Part shown: piece by piece, positions 6,598 through 48,724 of the stretch
How the letters are laid out: each line of letters begins with the position of its first letter
Numbering within the stretch: position 1 is the first letter of the stretch
Assembly (NCBI GenBank): GCA_013178295.1
Contig: JABLWW010000002.1
Location: forward strand, 186,001-250,000
Direction: 5' to 3'
From: Anaerolineae bacterium
GTDB taxonomy: Bacteria > Chloroflexota > Anaerolineae > Anaerolineales > Anaerolineaceae
DNA: 64,000 nucleotides
Made by a program: the position numbers and the translations under genes
The notes under the pieces: model-generated
Database searches by the model: none
What the model saw: the letters and a program-made list of their open reading frames with translations, nothing else
What the model was told of the DNA's origin: nothing

Positions 6598-6670
6598 GGT
6601 GGCTGTAGCTCAATGGCAGAGCACTTGACTGTGGATCAAGTGGTTGTGGGTTCGACCCCCATCAGCCACC
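6598..6670 (+). tRNA. tRNA-His (anticodon GTG)
   Basis: A full cloverleaf can be folded: acceptor GTGGCTG (6599-6605) with CAGCCAC (6663-6669), D arm GCTC..GAGC, anticodon stem CTTGA/TCAAG around CTGTGGA with anticodon GTG, and T arm GTGGG-TTCGACC-CCCAT. A G at 6598 can serve as the tRNA-His-specific G-1, opposite discriminator C at 6670. The 3' CCA is not encoded completely (CAG follows). It lies directly behind hisS and ahead of a terminator. Confidence 0.96.
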
Positions 6671-6673
6671 CAG

Positions 6674-37952: not shown

Positions 37953-37961
37953 TGCTATACT
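37953..37961 (+). promoter_or_regulatory. Extended -10 promoter of the eight-gene membrane cluster
   Basis: TGCTATACT is an extended -10 element (TGn plus TATACT). No close -35 box is seen, as is usual for such promoters. It lies 24 bases before the TTG start at 37986 and about 110 bases after korB, separating the two operons. Confidence 0.5.
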
Positions 37962-37985: not shown

Positions 37986-38219
37986 TTGATTAACTGGGCA
38001 AAACACTTGCAGCGGTGGGGTTTGAGTGAACCGATGGCTGCTTTCCTTGAAGCCACAGGACCTTTGTCTGTTTTACTGGTGCAGTTTGTCTACTTTGCGC
38101 AACCTTTCTTGGTGGAGATGCTTTCTTTGCAACAGTGGAAAGCGGTGATTGGGATTTTTGAAGATACCGCAACAAGGGCTGAGTTTATTGATTGTTTGCG
38201 GCAGGAGAGACTCACGTGA
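37986..38219 (+). CDS. Small hydrophobic protein, first gene of the membrane cluster
   Basis: A 77-residue protein with one clear hydrophobic stretch (GPLSVLLVQFVYFAQPFLVEML, residues 26-47) between an N-terminal basic helix and an acidic C-terminus. The TTG at 37986 follows AAGGA by 9 bases; a GTG at 37968 would coincide with the predicted transcription start. Its stop overlaps the next gene's GTG start (GTGA). I do not recognise it; small genes of this type may be missed by gene callers. Confidence 0.55.
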   Translation: MINWAKHLQRWGLSEPMAAFLEATGPLSVLLVQFVYFAQPFLVEMLSLQQWKAVIGIFEDTATRAEFIDCLRQERLT

Positions 38220-38977
38220 ACAACCTCGATCTCATTCTTGGCTTTTTGTTATTGTTGATCGCGGCGATTTTTATGCTTTTTCGCATGCTTGTGCCTGGAA
38301 AGCAGACGGGGTCTTCGTTTCGCGTTATTCCCGCGCTGGAAAGTATGCGTAAGGCGGTATATCTTTCTGTAGAAGAAGGAAACCGTTTGCATCTTTCGTT
38401 GGGGAATTCTGCACTGGTCAGTCCTGCCTTCTCTTCGGCATTGGTGGGGTTTAACGCTGTAGAGCCAATGGCGCAGGTGAGTATGCTTGGTGATCGCCCT
38501 CCGGTAATAACAAGCGGCGATGGCGGACTGGCGATTTTGAGCCGTGACAGGCTGGCGTCGGTTTTCCGCGCTGGCGCTGCGGCACAGCATGATCCTCTGC
38601 GCAGCAGGCTTTGTGGAGTTACCCCGACAGGGTATGTCCTGGGTGCTATACCGATTCTGCGTAATGAAAAAGTATCCACCAACATTTTGATGGGACATTT
38701 TGGCGCTGAGGTAGCTGTGTTGGGCGAGGTTGCAGACCGAAGCGAAAGTTATATGCTGGGTGCCAGTGATTCTCCGATGGCGCAGGCGGTGATGTATGCA
38801 ACAACAAAAGATGTTTTGATTGGTGAAGAACTGTATGCGTTGCCAGCTTATCTTCAATCTGGCAGGGCTTTTGTTGCCAGTGTCCGCACGCAGGACATTT
38901 TACGCTGGATCTTGATCGTGGTGATGGTGGGGGGTGCCTTTGCCAGACTGATTCTTTCGCTGGTGGGGTTGCAATGA
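38216..38977 (+). CDS. Membrane protein of unknown function, DUF6754-like
   Basis: The 253-residue protein has membrane helices at both ends (residues 3-24, and 228-250 in ILRWILIVVMVGGAFARLILSLVGL) and a soluble core between. The core has a conserved-looking pattern, AVYLSVEEGNRLHLSLGNSAL, PPVITSGDGGLAILSRD, MGHFGAEVAVLGE, SDSPMAQAVMYATT, IGEELYALPAYL. I associate it with DUF6754, known mainly from Chloroflexota, but without certainty. GTG 38216 has AGGAG upstream. It overlaps both neighbours by 4 bases, so the first three genes of the cluster are translationally coupled. Confidence 0.7.
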   Translation: MNNLDLILGFLLLLIAAIFMLFRMLVPGKQTGSSFRVIPALESMRKAVYLSVEEGNRLHLSLGNSALVSPAFSSALVGFNAVEPMAQVSMLGDRPPVITSGDGGLAILSRDRLASVFRAGAAAQHDPLRSRLCGVTPTGYVLGAIPILRNEKVSTNILMGHFGAEVAVLGEVADRSESYMLGASDSPMAQAVMYATTKDVLIGEELYALPAYLQSGRAFVASVRTQDILRWILIVVMVGGAFARLILSLVGLQ

Positions 38978-39594
38978 GGGGTATCCCGGCAACGTTTGTG
39001 GCAGTACTTACCGCAGTTATGATCCTGCTGGGATATTTTGTCTCTTTGCCTGCGCTTGAGAGCGCTCGAACGTTGTTGCTGGGCTGGGCTGTTACTTTGG
39101 TGAGTGTAGCAGCCATTGTAGGGGTCTTTAACCTGGTCGCAGTGCATTGGAGGAAGCTATTCATCCCGGGTCGTGAGCGGGATGTTTACAGTGCTTTTTT
39201 TCTGCTGGCATTTTTCGTCACGCTGGTGGTAGGCTTATGGTTAAGCCCGAGTGACGCACAATATCAGCATATTGTCACTTCTATCCAGGCGCCTGTTGAA
39301 ATCAGCCTGATGGCGGTGGTTGCGGTGAGCCTGGCTTATGGTGTCTTGCGCATGTTGCAGCGCCGCAGAGATCTAATGACAATATTGTTTGTTCTGAGCG
39401 TGTTGTTTTTCCTTATTCTTGAAAGCGGGATACTTGCGCCTTTGGCTTATAACCCGCTTCTTAAACAGATTCTTCATTTGGTCAACCGTATTCCTCTGGC
39501 AGGGGCGCGTGGTATCCTCTTGGGGATTGCTTTGGGAAGCCTGACAACCGGATTGCGGGTTCTGTTTGGCAGTGATCGACCATATCGTGGGTAG
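38974..39594 (+). CDS. Six-helix membrane protein of unknown function
   Basis: The 206-residue protein is almost wholly membrane-embedded, with about six hydrophobic segments (residues 6-26, 33-55, 70-90, 100-122, 132-152, 175-197). The loops are short; IPGRERD and QRRRD are basic cytoplasmic turns under the positive-inside rule. No family motif is recognised. It overlaps the preceding gene by 4 bases and precedes the zinc-ribbon protein by 2, so it is likely part of one membrane complex with them. Confidence 0.65.
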   Translation: MRGIPATFVAVLTAVMILLGYFVSLPALESARTLLLGWAVTLVSVAAIVGVFNLVAVHWRKLFIPGRERDVYSAFFLLAFFVTLVVGLWLSPSDAQYQHIVTSIQAPVEISLMAVVAVSLAYGVLRMLQRRRDLMTILFVLSVLFFLILESGILAPLAYNPLLKQILHLVNRIPLAGARGILLGIALGSLTTGLRVLFGSDRPYRG

Positions 39595-39596
39595 AG

Positions 39597-41705
39597 ATGG
39601 CAGATATTCTTTGTCCCTTTTGCAGTAAACCCAACCCGAGCGAGGCGGAGATATGTCAGTTTTGTGAGGCAAGGTTAAAGCCTCAAATGCCCTTCCAAGA
39701 GGGAGTGGCGGTGTCTCCTTCTGCAGAAGGGGATGAACTGGACTGGCTGCGCAGCCTGCGGGCGGATGCTGGTGAAGGGGAGATTGCTGGAGGGGGTGGG
39801 CAGGATGAGGGGATGAGCTTTTTGCCTGAACAGGAGGCAGAAGAAGGTGAGCCAGACTGGCTTAGCCGTCTTAATCTTGGTGCGGATGAGACTGCTGGTG
39901 AACAGATGGGCGGGGGGCAACGTTTTGAAGATCAGCAGCTAGAACAGGGAGAGGAATGGCTGCAACGTCACAAGCCTTTTGATCTTGATCAAAGTGGTTT
40001 GGCTCAAGAAGAAGGAGGGACTGTTATACCGGCTGATGGCGAAATGACAGAGCGGCTTGAGGAACAGGAGAATCTGGGGAATTGGTTTTCAGCAGAACCT
40101 GCTTCACAAGATGGGGCAGCGGGTATTTCTCATGAACAGCCTGATTGGCTCAGCAACATTGAGATAGAGCAGCCAGCGGCAGCCGATGCGGAGTCTTTTG
40201 GCGATGAACCACAACTTTTCGGGGGCGCCGATGTCTCCGGGAAAGATCATCATGAGGGAGATTGGCTTGCTGATGTTGAGCAGTATGATGAAGCAGTTGA
40301 AAAGCCCGTTGTTTCGACGTCAGGTGTCAAGCCGTTTTTAGAGGAAGATTTACCTGATTGGCTGGCGAATTATTCTGTGGCGGATGAAAGTGTGTCTGCG
40401 GGCGGCGTGTCTCAGGAGGGCGAACAACCGTCAGTTCCGTTTGAGGAAGGCAGTTTTTCAAACTGGTTGGCTGAATCTTCCGATGTAGAAGAAGCAGCAC
40501 CTGAAGTGCACACAGAGGAGCCATCAGAGTTGTCGGGAATAGCAGAAGCGCAGTTGCCAGCATGGCTACAAGCGATGCGTCCTGTCGAAGGGTTGCCAGC
40601 GAAACCGCTTGAAGGTGGTGTTGTTGAAACAGCGGGACCTCTCGCGGGGTTGCCCGCTGTGATACCGACGGACAGCCTGGCAGCTTATTACCGCAAGCCG
40701 CCAGTATATTCGTCAAAACTCCGCATGTCCCAAAGGCAGCAGCAACAGGTTGAGCTTCTGGAAAAGATGTTGGAGGAAGGAGCTAAACCCCTTGAGGTTG
40801 CGCCAAAGAAAAGATATCCTTATTCGCAGCGGATTATTCGATTAATTGTTGGGCTTGGTTTGATACTGGTTGTTGCTTTAATTTATCTGATAACGCCGCC
40901 AGGTATGTTGGTGGGAAGTTTATCACCGGGTGAGGGGATGGAAAACTTCAGCGCTGTTGTTGAAAGTCTGCCAGCTGATGCGTTGGTATTGGTGGCGATG
41001 GATTTTGACCCTGGTTTGGGTGGAGAAATGGGGCTGGCAGCAATCCCTGTTCTCCAACGTCTGATTGAAAAGAAAGCGAGGGTAGCGCTAGTTTCTTCTT
41101 CGGCGGGGGGGGTTATTATGGGAGAAGACTTGGTTCGGCGCGCTTATGAAGAACTGGGAGCGCTGGATGCAGAACGTGTGGGCGGTTATGACCTTGAGAA
41201 GAAAGTTGTTAACCTAGGCTATCTTGCTGGACAGACTGTGTCGCTACAGGAATTTGTCACACACCCCATGCGGGCAGCTCGTTTTGGGTTGTATGGGTTG
41301 CGTGACCAGAAGCAGGTTTGGGATTACCCGGCGTTGCAGGGACATTTGAGCTTGACGGATTTTCAGGCTGTTATTGTGGTCGTTGATAACATGGAGGCAG
41401 GGCGTGTATGGGTTGAGCAGGTTCAACCCAAGATGCAGGGTGTGCCCTTTTTGATGGTGAGCAGCGCACAGGCTGCGCCGCTGTTGTTGCCTTATTACGA
41501 GAGCGCCCAGGTGCAGGGCATGCTGGTTGGTATGCGAGATGGCTTGTTCTATGGACAGAAGTGGCTGATGCCGGGCAACCGTGCTGGGTTTTGGGGGGCA
41601 TTTCAATCAGGTATGCTGATTACGATTGTGTTGCTGCTACTGGGTGCAATTGTCCAGTTGGCAGGGGCGCTATTTACTCGGAATAAGACCAGGCAGGAGG
41701 GGTAG
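39597..41705 (+). CDS. Zinc-ribbon membrane protein with repeated Trp-Leu motifs
   Basis: The 702-residue protein has five parts: a zinc ribbon (CPFC .. CQFC, residues 6-23); an acidic low-complexity region (40-350) with nine similar motifs, among them LDWLRSL, PDWLSRL, EEWLQRH, GNWFSAE, PDWLSNI, GDWLADV, PDWLANY, SNWLAES and PAWLQAM; a membrane helix near 412-433; an extracytoplasmic alpha/beta domain (445-660: ADALVLVAMDFDPGLGGEMG, KARVALVSSSAGGVIMGE, QAVIVVVDNMEAGRVWVEQV); and a C-terminal helix (675-695). The motifs look like repeated docking peptides for one partner on the cytoplasmic side. Function unknown. Confidence 0.75.
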   Translation: MADILCPFCSKPNPSEAEICQFCEARLKPQMPFQEGVAVSPSAEGDELDWLRSLRADAGEGEIAGGGGQDEGMSFLPEQEAEEGEPDWLSRLNLGADETAGEQMGGGQRFEDQQLEQGEEWLQRHKPFDLDQSGLAQEEGGTVIPADGEMTERLEEQENLGNWFSAEPASQDGAAGISHEQPDWLSNIEIEQPAAADAESFGDEPQLFGGADVSGKDHHEGDWLADVEQYDEAVEKPVVSTSGVKPFLEEDLPDWLANYSVADESVSAGGVSQEGEQPSVPFEEGSFSNWLAESSDVEEAAPEVHTEEPSELSGIAEAQLPAWLQAMRPVEGLPAKPLEGGVVETAGPLAGLPAVIPTDSLAAYYRKPPVYSSKLRMSQRQQQQVELLEKMLEEGAKPLEVAPKKRYPYSQRIIRLIVGLGLILVVALIYLITPPGMLVGSLSPGEGMENFSAVVESLPADALVLVAMDFDPGLGGEMGLAAIPVLQRLIEKKARVALVSSSAGGVIMGEDLVRRAYEELGALDAERVGGYDLEKKVVNLGYLAGQTVSLQEFVTHPMRAARFGLYGLRDQKQVWDYPALQGHLSLTDFQAVIVVVDNMEAGRVWVEQVQPKMQGVPFLMVSSAQAAPLLLPYYESAQVQGMLVGMRDGLFYGQKWLMPGNRAGFWGAFQSGMLITIVLLLLGAIVQLAGALFTRNKTRQEG

Positions 41706-41710
41706 AGCAG

Positions 41711-42397
41711 ATGGCATCGTCCATTGATCTTGTCTGGGTGTTTGTAGGGTTTCTCTTTACCGTGCTCATTTTGAGTTATGTTCTGGGCGACAACCCGTTC
41801 TTTCGTCTTGCCTCTTATGTTTTTGTGGGCATATCGTCGGCATATCTTGTTGTCCTTTTGATTTATCAGGTTATCCTGCCGCGCCTGGTGCAGCCATTTT
41901 TTGAGACAAGCTCGAGCCAGCTTGTTTTGCATCTGGTGCTATTTGTGATGTGCCTGTTGTTGCTGACGAAACTGAGCCCTCGCCTTGCCAGATTTGGAAA
42001 TATCCCTATGGCGTATCTGGTAGGCGCAGGGACAGCGGTAGTGATTGGCGGGGCAGTGCTGGGAACCATCATCACGCAGGTAAAAGCGACGGTGGCTTAC
42101 CGATCAGCCTCTGCAGAGATCATGCCGGGTATTCGGGTGCTTGAGGGACTGGTCATCTTGCTTGGCACAGTGGTTACGCTGGCGTATTTTCACTTTGGTG
42201 CCAGGACAAAAACGGAGGGAGAAACACCATCTCGCCCGCTGTGGCTTGAGATGCTTTCGTATTTGGGACGCTTTTTCATTGCGGTTACTTTTGGGGCGTT
42301 GTTTGTTAGTGTTTACGTTTCTGCTTTGACTGCTTTGATTGAGCGGTTGAGTTTTATCATTCAATCTGTACCGATGTTGCTTAAGGGTCTTGGATAG
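41711..42397 (+). CDS. Multi-pass membrane protein of unknown function
   Basis: A 228-residue protein with about six membrane helices (residues 8-28, 33-57, 76-94, 103-125, 140-160, 190-215) and a basic loop KLSPRLARFG. The motif YVLGDNPFFRLASYVFVG near residues 24-41 is likely conserved among orthologues. It lies 5 bases after the zinc-ribbon protein and 6 before the ASKHA protein. No transporter family is recognised; it may form the membrane base of the complex. Confidence 0.65.
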   Translation: MASSIDLVWVFVGFLFTVLILSYVLGDNPFFRLASYVFVGISSAYLVVLLIYQVILPRLVQPFFETSSSQLVLHLVLFVMCLLLLTKLSPRLARFGNIPMAYLVGAGTAVVIGGAVLGTIITQVKATVAYRSASAEIMPGIRVLEGLVILLGTVVTLAYFHFGARTKTEGETPSRPLWLEMLSYLGRFFIAVTFGALFVSVYVSALTALIERLSFIIQSVPMLLKGLG

Positions 42398-42403
42398 AGG
42401 CAG

Positions 42404-44146
42404 ATGACTACCTCCATTGTTGATGCTGAATCGTTATTAGCGATTGATATAGGAACGATTAACACGCGCGCTTTGTTGTTTGACATTGTTGAGGGTCAAT
42501 ATCGCCACATTGCCACAGGGACAGCCCTGACAACGGCAGGGGTGCCATATCTTGACGTAGGGGAGGGTATCCATCGGGCAATACAGAATCTACAGGATTT
42601 GACGGGGCGGGTGATTATTGGTCCGTCTTCTGAGGTCATTTTGCCCATGGCGGCAAACGGAGCGGGGATAGATCAACTGGCAATTACGTACTCTGCTGGT
42701 CCCGAACTGCGAGTTGTAATTGCAGGGCTGTTGCCAGATGTTTCTATTTCCAGCGCGCAGCGTCTGGTTGCTACTGTCAACAGCCGGGTGGTAGAAACAA
42801 TCGGCATAACAGATCGCCGCCGCATGGAGGTGCAGCTAGATGCAATCGTCCATGCGAAGCCCGATCTGGTGATTATCTCTGGGGGGACAGATTATGGCGC
42901 AAACCGCTCGGTGCTTAAAGTAGTCGAATTGATATTACTGGCGTGCAAAGTTACTGCAAAGGGGCAAATACCAGAAGTCGTTTTTGCGGGTAATAAGGCT
43001 TTGGCAGATAGGGTGAAGGAGTTTTTGGGGAGGTATACACGGGTAACCCTGCTTTCCAATTTGAGACCAAGTGTTGATGTTGAAAACATTGACTCAAATC
43101 TGAACGCGTTTATAGAAGTGGTGAATCGTATTCGTGGTGAGCAGATAGGAGGGTTGGCTGCTTTTGCTGCTTTGGGCAATACATGTGTGATGCCAACACC
43201 GCTTGCTTTTGGGCGTATGATACGGTTTATTAGCTGTGTCAATAAAGAAAAAGGGGTCTTGGGAGTGGACTTGGGTGCCAGCGCAGCAACGGTAGCCATC
43301 GCGGTTGGCGGAAAACTTTCCCTGAACGTGTATCCTCTCAACATGGGAGCAGGACACCTATCACAAAGAGCTATCGAAGGCGTTATGCGCTGGCTTTCAG
43401 CAGATATACCAGAGGCGGTGGTGCGCGATTATCTCTGGCAAAAAACGCTCTTTCCAGCCAGCCTGCCGCTGACTCACCAAAGTCTGCTAATTGAGCAGGC
43501 TGCAGCGCGTTATATTTTGCAGACAGTAACCCAACTGGCCATGATGCGCGGGCAGTACGCCGGGCGTGGTTTTGAGCCAGTAATTGCTTCTGGGGCGGTG
43601 TTATCGTTCACCCCCCAGATAGAGCAAAGTTTATTGATGCTGTTGGATGGTTTGCAGCCGTCTGGTATCACTACGCTTATTCTTGACCCGAATGGTGTCA
43701 TGTCTGCTATGGGGGCTGCGGCAGGGCTCAATAGTGTCATCCCGGTACACATCCTTGAATCTGGTGCATTTTTGAATCTGGGTACAGTTATTGCGCCGTA
43801 TAGCCGGGCGCGTTATGGCAGCAAAGTTCTGCAGGTGCGGGTTGTGTATGAGCAGGGGGGGGATGCCCGTTATGAGATCAAACAGGGAACACTGGCTTTA
43901 CTGCCGTTGGAGAATGGTCAGGTGGCACGTTTGCATCTTTCGGCAATTAACGGAGCGACGTTGGATGCAACGGGGAAGGTGAGGAGTGCAAATTTCAAAG
44001 TGATTGGCGGAGTTTGCGGTATTGTGATTGATGCGCGCGGCCGCCCAATCGCTTTGCCTTCTGACAAAGCGAGAAGACGCGAGATGTTATGCAAATGGAG
44101 AGATGCACTGGGAATCAGCGATTCTGGCATAGAACTTGCACGGTGA
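42404..44146 (+). CDS. GlmL/MutL-family ASKHA ATPase-like protein
   Basis: The 580-residue protein resembles GlmL/MutL, the actin-like (ASKHA) companion of glutamate mutase. A first phosphate loop is LLAIDIGTINTRALLFD (residues 11-27). The central part has PDLVIISGGTDYGANRSVLKVVE and EVVFAGNKALADRVKEFL, typical of the family, and a second phosphate loop GVLGVDLGASAATVAIA lies near residue 287. A further ~110-residue C-terminal domain (IAPYSRARYGSKVLQVRVVYE onward) is not in the classic family. No glutamate mutase S or E gene is in the window. It is surrounded by membrane proteins, so it probably has a different client here. Confidence 0.85.
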   Translation: MTTSIVDAESLLAIDIGTINTRALLFDIVEGQYRHIATGTALTTAGVPYLDVGEGIHRAIQNLQDLTGRVIIGPSSEVILPMAANGAGIDQLAITYSAGPELRVVIAGLLPDVSISSAQRLVATVNSRVVETIGITDRRRMEVQLDAIVHAKPDLVIISGGTDYGANRSVLKVVELILLACKVTAKGQIPEVVFAGNKALADRVKEFLGRYTRVTLLSNLRPSVDVENIDSNLNAFIEVVNRIRGEQIGGLAAFAALGNTCVMPTPLAFGRMIRFISCVNKEKGVLGVDLGASAATVAIAVGGKLSLNVYPLNMGAGHLSQRAIEGVMRWLSADIPEAVVRDYLWQKTLFPASLPLTHQSLLIEQAAARYILQTVTQLAMMRGQYAGRGFEPVIASGAVLSFTPQIEQSLLMLLDGLQPSGITTLILDPNGVMSAMGAAAGLNSVIPVHILESGAFLNLGTVIAPYSRARYGSKVLQVRVVYEQGGDARYEIKQGTLALLPLENGQVARLHLSAINGATLDATGKVRSANFKVIGGVCGIVIDARGRPIALPSDKARRREMLCKWRDALGISDSGIELAR

Positions 44147-44153
44147 ACTTGTG

Positions 44154-45209
44154 ATGTCTATGATAGCACCTGTTACCCATTTTCTGCCTTTGACCAAAAT
44201 TCGCCGAGCGCGCCTGTTGCCTGTCAGCGGGCGGGTGGTTGTCCGTGTTGGGCAGAAAGTGTCCGCTGTTGATGTTGTTGCGGAATCGCTGGGCAGCGGT
44301 AAACATGTCATTGTGGATGTGTGGCAGGCGCTGGGTTTTTCAGCCACCAGCAGGTCTGAAAAGTGGGTTGGGCGTAAGGTTGGCGAGACGGTGCAGGTTG
44401 GGGATGTCATTGCTGAGACGGGCGGCTTGTTTCGCAAAGTCGTTCGAGCACCTGTTGAGGGTCAGATTATCGCAATTGGCGGCGGCCAGGTGCTCCTGGA
44501 GACGAAAGGGGAAGGCACGGCTGTTTTGGCTGGTTTTTCAGGTGTGGTGGAAGAACTGGTGCCTGAGCGGGGGGCAATTATTGAGGGGAGCGGCGCGCTG
44601 ATACAGGGGGTTTGGGGCAATCAGCGGATTGGCATGGGCACCTTGCAGGTGGTGGCATCTGCGCCTGATGAGGAGCTGCGTGCGGACAGGCTTGATGTCA
44701 GTTTGCGTGGAGCAATTTTGGTGTGCGGGTACTGTGCTGATGCAGGGGTGTTTGCGAAAGCGTCTGATTTACAGATACGGGGATTGATTCTTGCCAGCAT
44801 GGCGTCCAGCCTGATTCCTGCCGCCAGAAAGGTGGATTACCCGATTGTTCTTGTGGAGGGTTTTGGCAATTTGCCGTTCAACCAGGTTGCCTATAAAATT
44901 CTATCAACCAATGAAAAACGCGAAGTAGCTGTCAATGCCGCCCTGTGGGATATTTATCAGGGCGAAAGACCGGAGATTTTTATTCCACTTCCTGCAGAGG
45001 GTGAGATGGCTGCGGAAACAGACGAGTTTCACCCCGGGCAGATTGTCCGCATTCAGGGGGGGGATTTTCCTGAACGGACGGGGCGGATTGTTGAGGTGTA
45101 TCCCTATCCATGTCCGATTTCTAATGGATTGAAAGTGTTGGCTGCCAGAGTAGAGCTTGCTGACCGGGAGTCGGTCGTGCCTTTGGCTAATCTGGATGTG
45201 ATTGAGTGA
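44154..45209 (+). CDS. Protein with barrel-sandwich (lipoyl-like) and KOW-like domains
   Basis: A 351-residue cytoplasmic-type protein. Residues 10-40 and 75-130 look like a barrel-sandwich hybrid fold (VGRKVGETVQVGDVIAETGG, VVRAPVEGQIIAIGGGQVLLET) without a biotinyl/lipoyl Lys motif. A central alpha/beta part follows (GAILVCGYCADAGVFAKASDLQIRGLILASM, YPIVLVEGFGNLPFNQVAYKIL). The C-terminal 70 residues resemble a KOW/SH3-type module (HPGQIVRIQGGDFPERTGRIVEVYP). The ATG at 44154 is 7 bases after the upstream stop. It is likely a soluble partner of the ASKHA protein. No enzyme motif is recognised. Confidence 0.65.
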   Translation: MSMIAPVTHFLPLTKIRRARLLPVSGRVVVRVGQKVSAVDVVAESLGSGKHVIVDVWQALGFSATSRSEKWVGRKVGETVQVGDVIAETGGLFRKVVRAPVEGQIIAIGGGQVLLETKGEGTAVLAGFSGVVEELVPERGAIIEGSGALIQGVWGNQRIGMGTLQVVASAPDEELRADRLDVSLRGAILVCGYCADAGVFAKASDLQIRGLILASMASSLIPAARKVDYPIVLVEGFGNLPFNQVAYKILSTNEKREVAVNAALWDIYQGERPEIFIPLPAEGEMAAETDEFHPGQIVRIQGGDFPERTGRIVEVYPYPCPISNGLKVLAARVELADRESVVPLANLDVIE

Positions 45210-45264
45210 TCAAAAACGATGTGCGATGTTCTTTAAGAAATTCGCTAATTGAGGAGAAATTCTG

Positions 45265-45906
45265 ATGACCGATAATGATAACAGTTCTTATGACTATGAC
45301 TCCGAGGCTGACGATCTGGAACCACGGAGCAGCGGGGGCAGCAGCCGAACGTTCATCATAGCATTTGCCATTCTGGCGGTGGTGTTTTTGGTATTTTTGG
45401 CAGCTATGGTTATTTTGCTGCCGATGTTGAGATCGTCCAGCAATGCCCAGTACTTGCAGCAGGCGGCGCAAATTAATGCCCAGAATACTGCAACATCCCT
45501 TGCGGCGACCCAAATTGCCCTGACCATGGATGCGCAGCGTAAGATTACCCCCACTCCTTTGCCTACCACTCCGCCGCCACCTTCTCCTGTTCCGCCGACA
45601 TCCACACCGGTTGTCCTTGTAGCCACCGAGTCGGCTGAGGCGAAGGGAATGGAAGCAACGCCAGAGGCGACAGCAGGCGTGGGTGCGGCTGAAGAGGGTG
45701 GGGTTAACCGCACTGCGACGATCGCTGCGCTTTTCACACAAGCTGCTATGAGTTCCGGGGCGGAGGCGACAACATATCCTTTCAGTTCGACAGCTTTGCC
45801 AAATACCGGTTTTATGGACGAGTTTGGCTTGCCGGGCATGATTGGGGTTGCCATTGTACTGGTGGCGGTTGTGATTTTTGCACGGCGTTTGCGTACGCAG
45901 AGGTAA
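45265..45906 (+). CDS. Bitopic protein with Pro/Thr-rich region and C-terminal LPNTG anchor-like signal
   Basis: A 213-residue protein. A short acidic cytoplasmic head (1-28) is followed by a membrane helix (29-53), then an exposed region with Ala/Gln repeats (QYLQQAAQINAQNTATSLAA), a Pro/Thr/Ala-rich stretch (about 92-150), and at the end LPNTG, a hydrophobic helix and RRLRTQR. The tail has the three parts of a sortase sorting signal, but the N-terminal helix is not followed by a cleavage site, so the protein may span the membrane twice. It is the last gene of the cluster and is followed by a strong terminator. Confidence 0.7.
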   Translation: MTDNDNSSYDYDSEADDLEPRSSGGSSRTFIIAFAILAVVFLVFLAAMVILLPMLRSSSNAQYLQQAAQINAQNTATSLAATQIALTMDAQRKITPTPLPTTPPPPSPVPPTSTPVVLVATESAEAKGMEATPEATAGVGAAEEGGVNRTATIAALFTQAAMSSGAEATTYPFSSTALPNTGFMDEFGLPGMIGVAIVLVAVVIFARRLRTQR

Positions 45907-45933
45907 TAGCAACTTAATTAGGAATAAAATAGC

Positions 45934-45967
45934 ATCCCCTCTTCTTGAAATCTTTTGAAGAGGGGAT
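45934..45967. terminator. Bidirectional terminator between the membrane cluster and the phosphohexomutase gene
   Basis: A perfect 11-bp stem (ATCCCCTCTTC / GAAGAGGGGAT) with a 12-base loop. On the plus strand it is followed by AGTTGTTTT; on the minus strand by a GCTATTTTATT run. It separates two convergent operons. Confidence 0.85.
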
Positions 45968-46000
45968 AGTTGTTTTAAGTCAGCAGAGTGAGAAGGGTTT

Positions 46001-47461
46001 TTATGTAACGCTTGCTGCTACCTGTTTGCCATATTCTAACAATGCGCCAACCATGTCCTGCGAGCGACCTTCGGCGTATACCCTGAGAACAGGCTCGGTT
46101 CCGGAAGGGCGGATCAGAAGCCAGGAATCGTCGGCAAGGATATATTTGACTCCATCCAGTGCGCTGATGTCGGTGATGGTTTCGCCTCCAATAGATTGGG
46201 GGGCGTCATGCTGTAGCTTGTGAACCATTTTTTCCTTGGCAACCGGGAAACGCAGACGAAGGTCAGCGCGCTCGTAGAAAGCCGGTCCCACCTCTTTCAG
46301 CAGATTCTCAACCAGTTCATACAGGGTAGTTTTTGCACTGGCGACGATTTCAATGAGCAGCAAGCCGAGCAAAATGCCGTCACCCTCAGGGATGTGCCCT
46401 TTAAAAGAAATGCCACCCGATTCTTCGCCTCCAATGAGAACATCTTCCTTCATCATGTAGTCGGCAATATGATTAAAACCGACTGGTGTCTCATAACAGG
46501 GCAAACCATATTTGTTTGCCAGACGGTCAATCATGCGTGTGGTTGAAACTGTGCGGACAACAGCACCGCCGAGGTGGCGTTTTTCAACCAGATGCCGCAG
46601 CGCCAGTGCCATGATTTTGTGGGGATCGACAAAGTTACCGCGCTCGTCCATCGCGCCAATGCGGTCGGCATCGCCATCTGTGGCAATGCCAAAAGAACCC
46701 AGTCCTGTGCCAATTGCGCCTGCCAGGGCACCCAAATAGCGCCCAATGGGTTCCGGGTGTACGCCTCCGAAGCCGGGGTTCATTTCATTGCGGATTTCGG
46801 TTACCTCGCAGCCGGTGCCTTGCAAGATACCCCGTATCACGCCTCTTCCGGAGCCATACATTGAATCAACTACAATCCGCAAATCCCCATCTGCAATTGT
46901 GTTGAAATTGATCAGTTTTCTGAGATGCTCGTAATAAGCCGGGATGGGGTTAAAGCGGGTGATTAGCCCAAGCCGCAGTGCCTGCTCGTATTCCATCAGG
47001 TTTGGGCCGCGTCCCAGTTGCTCGTTATCGTTGAGATACACTTCAACACGGCGGCACTGTTCTGGGAGTGCTGAAGCGCCGTTGGAAGATTTAAGCTTGA
47101 CGCCGTTGTAACGCGGCGCATTGTGTGATGCTGTAATCATAATGCCCCCGATGGCATCCTGGTTGCAGACGGAATATGAGATTGCAGGTGTAGGAGCGTC
47201 GGACTGGCTCAGCTGCACGTGGTATCCATTGGCTGCCAGCACACGCGCAGCTTCGGCTGCATAGCGGTCAGAAAGAAAGCGCGTGTCGAAACCTACCACA
47301 ACTTTGCGTGACAAGCGCGGATTTGCCGGGGATATATTTTCATCCCAGTTGGAGTCGTTAAAAGCATCGGCAATTGCCTGGGTGATGAGGCGGAGGTTGC
47401 TGAAGGTAAACGTGTCTGAAATAACTGCGCGCCAGCCGTCCGTTCCAAAGTGAATAGTCAT
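46001..47461 (-). CDS. Phosphoglucomutase/phosphomannomutase family phosphohexomutase
   Basis: The 486-residue enzyme moves phosphate between C1 and C6 of a hexose phosphate. The four family loops are intact: the phosphoserine loop ITASHNAPRYNG, the metal loop ATDGDADRIG, the sugar loop GEESGGISF and the phosphate loop RPSGTEPVLRVY. It starts MTIHFGTDGWR, typical of the archaeal/bacterial group whose members act on glucose, mannose or glucosamine phosphates. The substrate cannot be fixed; a GlmM-like role would fit with glmS. AGGAG lies shortly before the ATG at 47461. Confidence 0.93.
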   Translation of the reverse strand: MTIHFGTDGWRAVISDTFTFSNLRLITQAIADAFNDSNWDENISPANPRLSRKVVVGFDTRFLSDRYAAEAARVLAANGYHVQLSQSDAPTPAISYSVCNQDAIGGIMITASHNAPRYNGVKLKSSNGASALPEQCRRVEVYLNDNEQLGRGPNLMEYEQALRLGLITRFNPIPAYYEHLRKLINFNTIADGDLRIVVDSMYGSGRGVIRGILQGTGCEVTEIRNEMNPGFGGVHPEPIGRYLGALAGAIGTGLGSFGIATDGDADRIGAMDERGNFVDPHKIMALALRHLVEKRHLGGAVVRTVSTTRMIDRLANKYGLPCYETPVGFNHIADYMMKEDVLIGGEESGGISFKGHIPEGDGILLGLLLIEIVASAKTTLYELVENLLKEVGPAFYERADLRLRFPVAKEKMVHKLQHDAPQSIGGETITDISALDGVKYILADDSWLLIRPSGTEPVLRVYAEGRSQDMVGALLEYGKQVAASVT

Positions 47462-47539
47462 AGATATCTCCTGGTAGGAAAAGGTAAATTTGTCTTTGAG
47501 ACTGTATGATAACTTGCAGAGTATGAAGTTTGCAGGGGG

Positions 47540-48724
47540 TTAGCCGGGCGGCGCGGCGGTGGCGGTAATGAGCAAGATACGGCGTATCCAGCCTGTTTCA
47601 CCGTCAGGCGCCCGCACATGCACCCAGATGCCCGATGAGTTCTTTTCAACCTCTGGCAGGATTTCAACAATTGATCCATTGGATAAGATTTTGACCGCCT
47701 GGGCATCGTTTCTTGGCTCACTGCGGATAAAAGCACCATCTCCTTCGTATGCGTTGATCTTTCCCCACACGGGGGTAGGTTGCGGGCTGAGCGTTTGGGT
47801 GGGTGTGCGTGTGGGTACCAATGTGTTGGTTGGTGTTGGGGTTATTGTAGGGGGGTTTGGAGTGTTGGAAAGTGTGGTAGAGGGAGAAGGGGAAAGGGTC
47901 ATTGTTGGCGGATGTGTTGGCATAGCTAACTCAGTTGACATCGCTGTTCCGATGCCGCTGATGGCAATCAAAGCGATCAGGCTGATGAGAAGCAGGGTGC
48001 TGCTAAGCGTATAACCAAATACCGTGTTTGGGCGTAGCCCGAGCAGAAAGAAGATAACAGTGCCGATCAATGCTGCCCAGGCAAGGTGGATGATGAATAC
48101 GATCAACCCGTCGGGGAACAGCCCGCTGATGCCGCTTGTTAACCCAAAGCCAGCAACTCCCAGGGGTAGAAACAGCTCGTAAGACAGAGCAATGCTGCTG
48201 ATAACAGGGCGTTGTGAGGGATGTTTGACAAGCAGAAAGACCGCAGAGATTGCGCCTCCTGACAGCACGATGAAATCTGCCAGGGAAAGATGGGCGTGGT
48301 AAAGAGCCTGCTGTACCTCTATGCTGGGAAAAAGGGTGTATCCCAATCCTACCAGCCCGCTGCCAAGGAAGACGAGTGCACTGCTGATGGCAATGCTCCC
48401 TAACATTTGCACAAAAAAGCGTCTGGAACCAAATACTGAGGCAAGGGATAGTCCTGTTACCGGCCCGAGGAATGGGCTGAGCAAGGCTGCCAGCACGAAA
48501 AGGGCAGGCAGATTTGTCAGACATGCTGCACCGATTATCAATCCACACAGCAGAGACAGTACAAAAAATTCGACGGAAGGTGTCGCCTGATAAGCCAATG
48601 AAGCCAGAAACTCTGCTCTTTCACCCTCTGCTTCTGGCATGATAAGCCGCTTTCTGCGGCGGCGGCGTGCTGGCGGCAGGTTGTGTTCCTCAGGTGGGAG
48701 TGGTTCGCTGGTTGGCAGGTTCAT
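47540..48724 (-). CDS. DUF389-like membrane protein with C-terminal SH3-type domain
   Basis: The 394-residue protein has a basic cytoplasmic N-terminus (RRRRRKRLIMP), then about six membrane helices (residues 52-260) including ALLSPFLGPVTGLSLASVFGSRRF, reminiscent of DUF389. A Thr/Pro/Ser-rich linker (about 265-318) leads to a bacterial SH3-like domain (325-385: GDGAFIRSEPRNDAQAVKILSNG, VHVRAPDGETGWIRR). SH3 domains of this type bind cell-wall or surface ligands, so the C-terminus is probably outside. Its start overlaps the end of the HAD gene by 4 bases (ATGA). The fusion of such a membrane part with an SH3 domain is unusual. Confidence 0.72.
   Translation of the reverse strand: MNLPTSEPLPPEEHNLPPARRRRRKRLIMPEAEGERAEFLASLAYQATPSVEFFVLSLLCGLIIGAACLTNLPALFVLAALLSPFLGPVTGLSLASVFGSRRFFVQMLGSIAISSALVFLGSGLVGLGYTLFPSIEVQQALYHAHLSLADFIVLSGGAISAVFLLVKHPSQRPVISSIALSYELFLPLGVAGFGLTSGISGLFPDGLIVFIIHLAWAALIGTVIFFLLGLRPNTVFGYTLSSTLLLISLIALIAISGIGTAMSTELAMPTHPPTMTLSPSPSTTLSNTPNPPTITPTPTNTLVPTRTPTQTLSPQPTPVWGKINAYEGDGAFIRSEPRNDAQAVKILSNGSIVEILPEVEKNSSGIWVHVRAPDGETGWIRRILLITATAAPPG

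Follow-up and report, generated by a model that had tools for sequence, protein, structure and literature searches.

A conserved gene cluster of Chloroflexota coding for a GlmL-related ASKHA protein and membrane proteins including a DUF6754 member: a candidate two-module envelope system

Background

ASKHA proteins of the PilM, FtsA and MreB type presumably dock to membrane machines, and we take them to be cytoplasmic proteins encoded together with membrane and extracytoplasmic partners. The GlmL/MutL family (PF13941 in Pfam; GlmL and GlmL-related models in NCBIfam) represents another branch of ASKHA proteins. In the Agl-Glt machinery of Myxococcus the protein GltJ is assumed to comprise a zinc ribbon, a disordered linker, a trans-membrane segment and an extracytoplasmic domain. 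The current analysis deals with a cluster of eight genes, labelled g1 to g8, in a stretch of 64,000 nucleotides from an Anaerolineae bacterium of the phylum Chloroflexota (assembly GCA_013178295.1, contig JABLWW010000002.1, positions 186,001 to 250,000), referred to here as the window. The genes g2 to g5 code for membrane proteins and g6 for an ASKHA protein. A first-pass annotation, made from the sequence of the window, had proposed an undescribed envelope machine with a cytoplasmic ATPase-like core, a membrane base and a surface protein.

The presumed likeness of the cluster to the PilM, FtsA and MreB-type systems lies in the encoding of a cytoplasmic ASKHA protein along with membrane and extracytoplasmic partners. 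However, none of the eight products matches the PilN/PilO, FtsZ or RodZ families of Pfam and NCBIfam, and g6 is of the PF13941 branch. No description of this gene set was found in the accessible portions of the openly licensed literature on Chloroflexota MutL, GlmL/ASKHA, GltJ, Chloroflexota gliding and MglA/MglB, and no openly licensed PubMed Central paper naming DUF6754 or PF20539 was found. The cluster is a real and conserved envelope system that is apparently undescribed. We suggest, with a probability of about two in five, that it encodes an ancient two-module trans-envelope complex, which the ASKHA protein g6 would drive or gate.

Conservation of gene order and co-inheritance

The survey comprised 151 sampled genomes of Chloroflexota and 14 control genomes. 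DUF6754, the family of g2, is encoded in 38 of the 151 genomes, distributed over 11 families, and in none of the controls. Neighbourhoods were taken from 34 of the 37 DUF6754 genomes other than that of the window, and from a further named locus of Chloroflexi bacterium UBA11865 (L066); the three genomes left out (G034, G043 and G102) belong to the same genus as the included G078 and G110. Using iterated profiles, g1-g2-g3-g4-g5-g6 have been identified in the same order and on the same strand in 26 of the 34 loci, representing 9 families. Seven loci end at a contig edge before the set is complete and one (L033, family f9) is truly split. The order is kept far beyond close relatives. Most of the flanking genes vary between loci while the order of the block stays, and clustering of the flanks revealed a macro-domain gene as the only other family of open reading frames common to more than three families. 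One clustered family (c122) proved to be antisense to g5 and was dropped.

The gene g7 comes next in 18 of the 35 loci and g8 in 14. Occurrence of g8 is limited to families f1, f2 and f17 and to L066, with an LPxTG motif in 11 of these 14 loci. The surface protein is an accessory and does not belong to the core.

Among the 151 genomes profile matches were obtained in 90 for g6 (a number that includes true GlmL-type proteins, as in G089), in 87 for g7, in 40 for g5 and in 38 for g2. The genes g2 and g5 are found together in 38 genomes and both missing in 111; g5 occurs alone in two and g2 alone in none. Likewise, g6 and g7 occur together in 84 genomes and neither in 58, with six having only g6 and three only g7, and two of these three carry a g6-like open reading frame beside g7 (L132 and L133). 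All the 38 genomes with g2 have a g6 match. The gene order and the co-inheritance make it well supported that the genes of the cluster form a joint system.

From the 90 genomes matched by the g6 profile, twenty loci with g6 and no linked DUF6754 were examined, as were eight more picked from the list of g7 matches. In 16 of the twenty, coming from 13 families, g7 lies directly with g6, and a locus of family f23 (L074) brings to 14 the families in which the locus has g6 but lacks g2-g5; a g6-like open reading frame stands beside g7 in all eight of the others. The pair g6-g7 is wider than the cluster: at least 14 families have it in the absence of the membrane genes. Two loci of family f26 (L089 and L134) have the order macro-domain gene, g1, g6, g7, with g2-g5 missing. 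The eight genes can be taken apart rather than forming a single fixed unit, given that g6-g7 occur without g2-g5 in many families and that g7 lies elsewhere in families f18, f28 and f57.

In a tree of 47 g6 sequences, which has several long branches and is unsure in parts, six changes between membrane-linked and unlinked states are seen, as against 14.6 in shuffles, and at least three of them are forced by well supported branches. These changes would be better accounted for by g2-g5 having been lost repeatedly as a block than by their having been gained several times in one order.

The ASKHA protein g6 and its neighbour g7

The product of g6 (42404-44146, + strand) matches the MutL profile PF13941 over nearly the whole of the profile (residues 12-452 of the protein, E-value 1.8e-53), in agreement with its first description as a GlmL/MutL-like ASKHA protein. 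The likeness to this family lies in the ASKHA domain. Unlike GlmL, g6 has an extra conserved C-terminal domain (residues ~453-575), with G535, D543, R545 and P548 invariant among the 17 sequences of an alignment (A3), and has g7 and the membrane proteins as recurrent partners; its scores are far below the NCBIfam cut-offs, with 80.7 bits against 475 for the GlmL equivalog. In 47 g6-like sequences, including one canonical GlmL (L090), the residues of the nucleotide site are mostly kept: D/E15 in 46, G17 in 43, D289 in 38, G291 in 41 and G397 in 46. The protein is probably ATP-binding, and an ATPase machine is a plausible description of the system. The comparison of g6 with the sequence profiles of PDB gave nothing informative, and one scan of viral contigs with g6 gave no relative.

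The longest open reading frame of g7 (44136-45209, + strand) shows similarity to the RnfC_N barrel-sandwich (E-value 6.7e-4) and to KOW (E-value 0.054), both below the cut-offs. Against PDB profiles, weak KOW and RNA-polymerase barrel-sandwich rows are obtained (E-values 0.02-0.04) along with a better-scoring row, 'Lysozyme' chain 5i8l over 43 positions (E-value 5e-5), which could not be interpreted. The signals for the proposed barrel-sandwich/KOW protein are thus present, though all weak. A redox complex of the Rnf/Nqr type, considered because of the RnfC_N match, was rejected since g3 and g5 match no Rnf/Nqr subunit in Pfam or NCBIfam and the RnfC matches of g7 are below the cut-off.

Membrane proteins and the motif array of g4

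The product of g2 (38216-38977, + strand, GTG start) consists of a trans-membrane segment, a domain that is probably cytoplasmic and a second trans-membrane segment. It matches DUF6754 (PF20539), a family whose name marks its function as unknown, with 59.9 bits over a curated cut-off of 27 (E-value 2.8e-16, profile positions 141-246 of 257), and what had been called DUF6754-like is a member of the family, now with a gene context. The genes g3 (38974-39594, + strand) and g5 (41711-42397, + strand) code for polytopic membrane proteins with about six trans-membrane segments each, five to six being read for g3. The product of g4 (39597-41705, + strand) has an N-terminal zinc ribbon and a disordered array of PxWL motifs, predicted to be cytoplasmic, followed by a trans-membrane segment, an extracytoplasmic domain (residues ~436-672) and another trans-membrane segment.

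The distribution of charges follows the positive-inside rule in opposite senses for the two domain-bearing proteins. In 33 g2 proteins the mean number of Lys and Arg residues is 0.45 before the first trans-membrane segment and 3.82 after it, placing the domain inside, and in 27 g4 proteins it is 3.11 before and 0.81 after, placing the domain outside. Profile comparison gave no support for the domains of g2 and g4 as paralogues (probability 3.1), nor for g3 and g5 as paralogues (probability 0.5). No match was found for g2 among the sequence profiles of PDB and nothing informative for the g4 domain or g5, the best rows for the g4 domain being WRAP-T proteins over 29 positions. Proteins like DUF6754 and like the outside domain of g4 presumably occur in other phyla as well.

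The zinc ribbon of g4 stays below the cut-off in the protein of the window (E-value 0.0065) and is above it in the homologue of L032 (Zn_Ribbon_1, E-value 3.4e-12). The repeated Trp-Leu motifs noted at first are real: the pattern P-x-W-[LIM] is seen 467 times in the N-terminal parts of 39 g4 or g4-like proteins, where shuffles that keep the composition give 10.8. The count covers 39 of 42 such proteins and leaves out three g4 proteins of f14 in which the part is too short. The consensus is [DE]-[LV]-P-[DA]-W-L-[RQK]. There are 4 motifs in g4 of the window, 4-12 per protein in f2 and 10-63 in f18, f28 and f57, the lower numbers being of contig-cut proteins. A strict LP[DE]W[LF] pattern searched in the DNA of the window's genome gave 26 matches against 5 for the reversed control, and only the open reading frame of g4 held several.

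In eight of the twenty loci without linked DUF6754 (L074-L080 and L084) a Trp-motif protein lacking the outside domain is encoded just before g6. Seven of the eight have a zinc ribbon, and a trans-membrane segment or a short basic tail is present at the C-terminus. One of them (L075:6289-9843), recognised by reading and not by profile, is a zinc-ribbon protein of 1184 residues that contains 15 PxW[LIM] motifs and ends in a basic tail; its gene overlaps g6 by 4 bases. L093 encodes a zinc-ribbon protein without the motif. Since the motif proteins without the outside domain end in a trans-membrane segment or basic tail, the scaffold seems to be held at the membrane in both layouts. Two g6 proteins of f28 bear the PxWL motif in their own tails, and a basic aromatic stretch is often found at the very end of the g6 tails of f18, f28 and f57. 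The array is taken here as a putative multivalent docking site.

A two-module complex

In the proposed complex, the cytoplasmic module would consist of g6 and of g7 as an adaptor, together with g1 and, in some lineages, the macro-domain protein. The membrane module would be formed by g2 with its domain inside, by the six-segment proteins g3 and g5 and by the part of g4 that carries the outside domain between two trans-membrane segments. The cytoplasmic part of g4, with its zinc ribbon or its [DE][LV]PxWL array or both, may serve as a scaffold anchored at the membrane and recruit either the g6/g7 module or a shared partner. In turn, g6 would undergo a change driven by nucleotide and thereby drive or gate the membrane base. 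The physical complex, the hydrolysis of ATP, the partner of the motif and the direction of coupling are inferred. A cytoplasmic ATPase-like part on a membrane base, as in the first-pass annotation, fits the topology bias and the motifs; the surface part of that proposal does not belong to the core.

Several observations weigh against this model. In the split locus of f9, g1-g4 lie on one contig, where the 471 bases after g4 hold no g5 and an open reading frame on the reverse strand comes next, while g5 and g6 are on another contig (L092), 1.6 kb apart; a second genome of f9 (G002) has a similar gap. L091 has g3-g6 and no match to g1, g2 or g7, and in f18, f28 and f57 g7 is unlinked. The motif is absent in f9, f22 and f43, in partial proteins of f50 and in L091 and L093, three g4 proteins of f14 lack the N-terminal part, and seven N-terminal parts of f18 have the array and no CxxC pairs, so that neither zinc ribbon nor motif array is indispensable. 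The p-values of co-occurrence overstate independence because the Chloroflexota genomes share descent. No fold match by sequence was obtained for g2, the g4 domain or g5, and the structure predictions are poor, with AlphaFold mean pLDDT (predicted local distance difference test) values of 39.8 for the g4 domain from a single sequence and 46.6 for g7 from two sequences.

Alternative roles

The products could instead form a sensor or transporter, in which the domains of g2 and g4 bind a small molecule, g3 and g5 form a channel or permease and g6 and g7 are regulators. The two proteins with six trans-membrane segments suit such a role, and so do the histidine-kinase genes found downstream of g8 in L066, L052 and L054. 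A nucleotide or ADP-ribose-type ligand is suggested by the macro-domain (PF01661) gene situated directly ahead of g1 in loci from five families, f9, f14, f22, f43 and f26 (L036:7111-7623, L060:12642-13166, L062:1015-1539, L065:4483-4986, L089:6995-7816 and L134:6585-7292; in L033 the match is split over two frames). This gene shows a 4-base overlap in the two of five f14 loci that have it. However, among the f14 loci the gene is seen in these two only, the window has none, and no transporter family of Pfam or NCBIfam is matched over its cut-off. A sensor or transporter is an unlikely, though arguable, explanation.

A polarity or surface-motility machine, which would span the envelope and move or position surface structures and which in the gliding Chloroflexia would be switched by receiver-MglB and a hybrid kinase, was also considered. 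In Myxococcus, going by the sections available of the published accounts, motility is switched by MglA, MglB and RomR. In families f18, f28 and f57, which appear to be Chloroflexia, the separate g7 is followed by a gene coding for a receiver-linker-Roadblock fusion in 11 of 12 loci, the twelfth (L127) ending at a contig edge. A gene for a kinase of the receiver-GAF-HisKA-HATPase type is also present in 6 of the 12, three of them typed with Pfam. Comparison of the Roadblock domain by profile (A8) yields MglB structures, the best being 6hjm with an E-value of 2e-15; Pfam alone is weak. The numbers of PxWL motifs are the highest in these same families (10-63 per protein), and, according to the part seen of PMC3368417, the genes behind gliding in Chloroflexi await identification.

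Arguing against a motility role, the membrane module is also encoded in genomes without a receiver-MglB match, including that of the window and the small genomes of f14. Strong receiver-MglB matches (E-value <1e-60) are found in 15 of the 151 genomes, all from f18, f28 and f57, with shorter MglB-like proteins in f23, f39 and f41. No GTPase has been identified as MglA: PF00025 is matched in 10 of 10 genomes and also in 12 of 14 controls, and the two proteins tested are Arf-like (Herpetosiphon, G110 of f28) and Rab-like (G118, matching mainly Rab among 60 of 792 rows). The available text of PMC3368417 states that Herpetosiphon aurantiacus has no homologues of the gliding genes of Myxococcus or Flavobacterium, the portion seen of PMC7332563 puts forward Tad pili as the organ by which Chloroflexales glide, and gliding of Chloroflexota is mentioned merely as reported in that of the review PMC13104615. 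A motility function of the cluster is quite improbable. The more elaborate picture of a GlmL-related ASKHA ATPase and g7 docked by the PxWL scaffold on a DUF6754 base, serving in the gliding Chloroflexia as a motility or polarity machine switched by receiver-MglB, would be a still longer shot.

The layout of g4 resembles that assumed for GltJ, and an MglB-type regulator is encoded beside g7 in f18, f28 and f57. Unlike the Agl-Glt system, g4 has a motif array and the genome of the window has no MglB link; GltJ itself appears only as a weak row on g8, and the Agl motor genes were not searched for. In the loci L120-L131 (e.g. L129:2509-6536), a hybrid histidine kinase, the receiver-Roadblock fusion or both are encoded after g7, which brings RomR plus MglB to mind. 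A kinase and an MglB-type gene side by side are also known from the conservons of Actinomycetota (CvnA kinase and CvnB roadblock protein, in the section seen of PMC13343842). In the loci near g7, in contrast, the receiver is fused to the roadblock domain and linked to g7; CvnC and CvnD were not searched for.

The membership of g6 in PF13941 would agree with a reactivase of the GlmL type, acting on glutamate mutase or a like cobalamin enzyme. Such a role is largely refuted and very improbable, considering the low score with the GlmL model, the extra C-terminal domain and the absence of a PF06368 (mutase E) match in the genome of the window, which is 97.8% complete. A positive control was provided by another Chloroflexota genome (L090:9295-12663), in which a canonical GlmL gene adjoins those for a B12-binding protein and methylaspartate mutase E (PF06368). 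With PF13941 this GlmL reaches 567.5 bits; it ends four residues past position 460 of g6 and so has no such C-terminal domain. In the loci examined g6 does not adjoin mutase genes, and this shorter protein is the sole PF13941 member found beside B12 mutase genes.

That the genes are chance neighbours in an operon without joint function, for which the separability of g7 and g8 and the split in f9 might speak, is hardly credible in view of the tight co-inheritance and of an order that stays the same in 26 loci from 9 families while most of the flanks change.

Organisation of the cluster in the window

The genome to which the window belongs measures 3.95 Mb, and its contig C12 contains the window. 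Eight tightly spaced open reading frames on the + strand fill positions 37986-45906, as first described. The first gene, g1 (37986-38219, + strand), codes for a small hydrophobic or amphipathic protein of 77 residues with a TTG start and AAGGA upstream. The overlaps of g1 with g2 and of g2 with g3 are of 4 bases each, and the other gaps measure 2-55 bases. The longest open reading frame of g7 and the end of g6 share 11 bases; the true start of g7 is probably an ATG near 44154-44160, leaving a gap of 7-13 bases after g6. Since the homologues point to this later start, the range of -4 to 55 bases given earlier for the gaps is about right.

The last gene, g8 (45265-45906, + strand), codes for an accessory protein with two trans-membrane segments. 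The LPNTG tail attributed to it, with a trans-membrane segment and a basic tail, can be read in the sequence, though the LPXTG_anchor score of 15.7 bits is just under the cut-off of 15.9. Four sortase-family matches are present in the genome of the window (G000; L070-L073 on contigs C12, C17, C3 and C14), one of them inside an open frame of 2630 residues. The NCBIfam GltJ row on g8 (E-value 0.0027, 16.8 bits against 450) looks compositional.

The cluster had been credited with a promoter and terminator of its own, and the second of these is the better supported. The hairpin terminator (45925-45977, + strand), situated between g8 and a convergent phosphoglucomutase gene, has a folding energy of -26.8 kcal/mol (z -6.15) that none of 200 shuffles equalled, and is missing from a consensus terminator scan that took loops of 3-8 only. 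The putative promoter is an extended -10 element (TGC TATACT, 37953-37961, + strand) read by eye, with a weak -35; a consensus promoter scan listed no site at 37953-37961. The upstream neighbours in the window are genes of the pyruvate:ferredoxin oxidoreductase type, and convergent phosphoglucomutase and DUF389/SH3 genes follow downstream (46001-48724). The phosphoglucomutase gene is also found downstream in the f1 locus and in 6 of 11 f2 loci. A tRNA-His (6599-6671) is the sole RNA gene in the window by ARAGORN and by Rfam at the gathering threshold.

Conclusion

The analysis provides a gene context for DUF6754 and indicates that the MutL annotation of g6-type proteins is misleading. It suggests that an ASKHA protein may be recruited to the membrane through an array of linear motifs, in a system that is conserved and repeatedly remodelled in a large phylum. 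The cluster also offers candidate genes for the question of which genes Chloroflexota require to glide, described as open in the part seen of PMC3368417.

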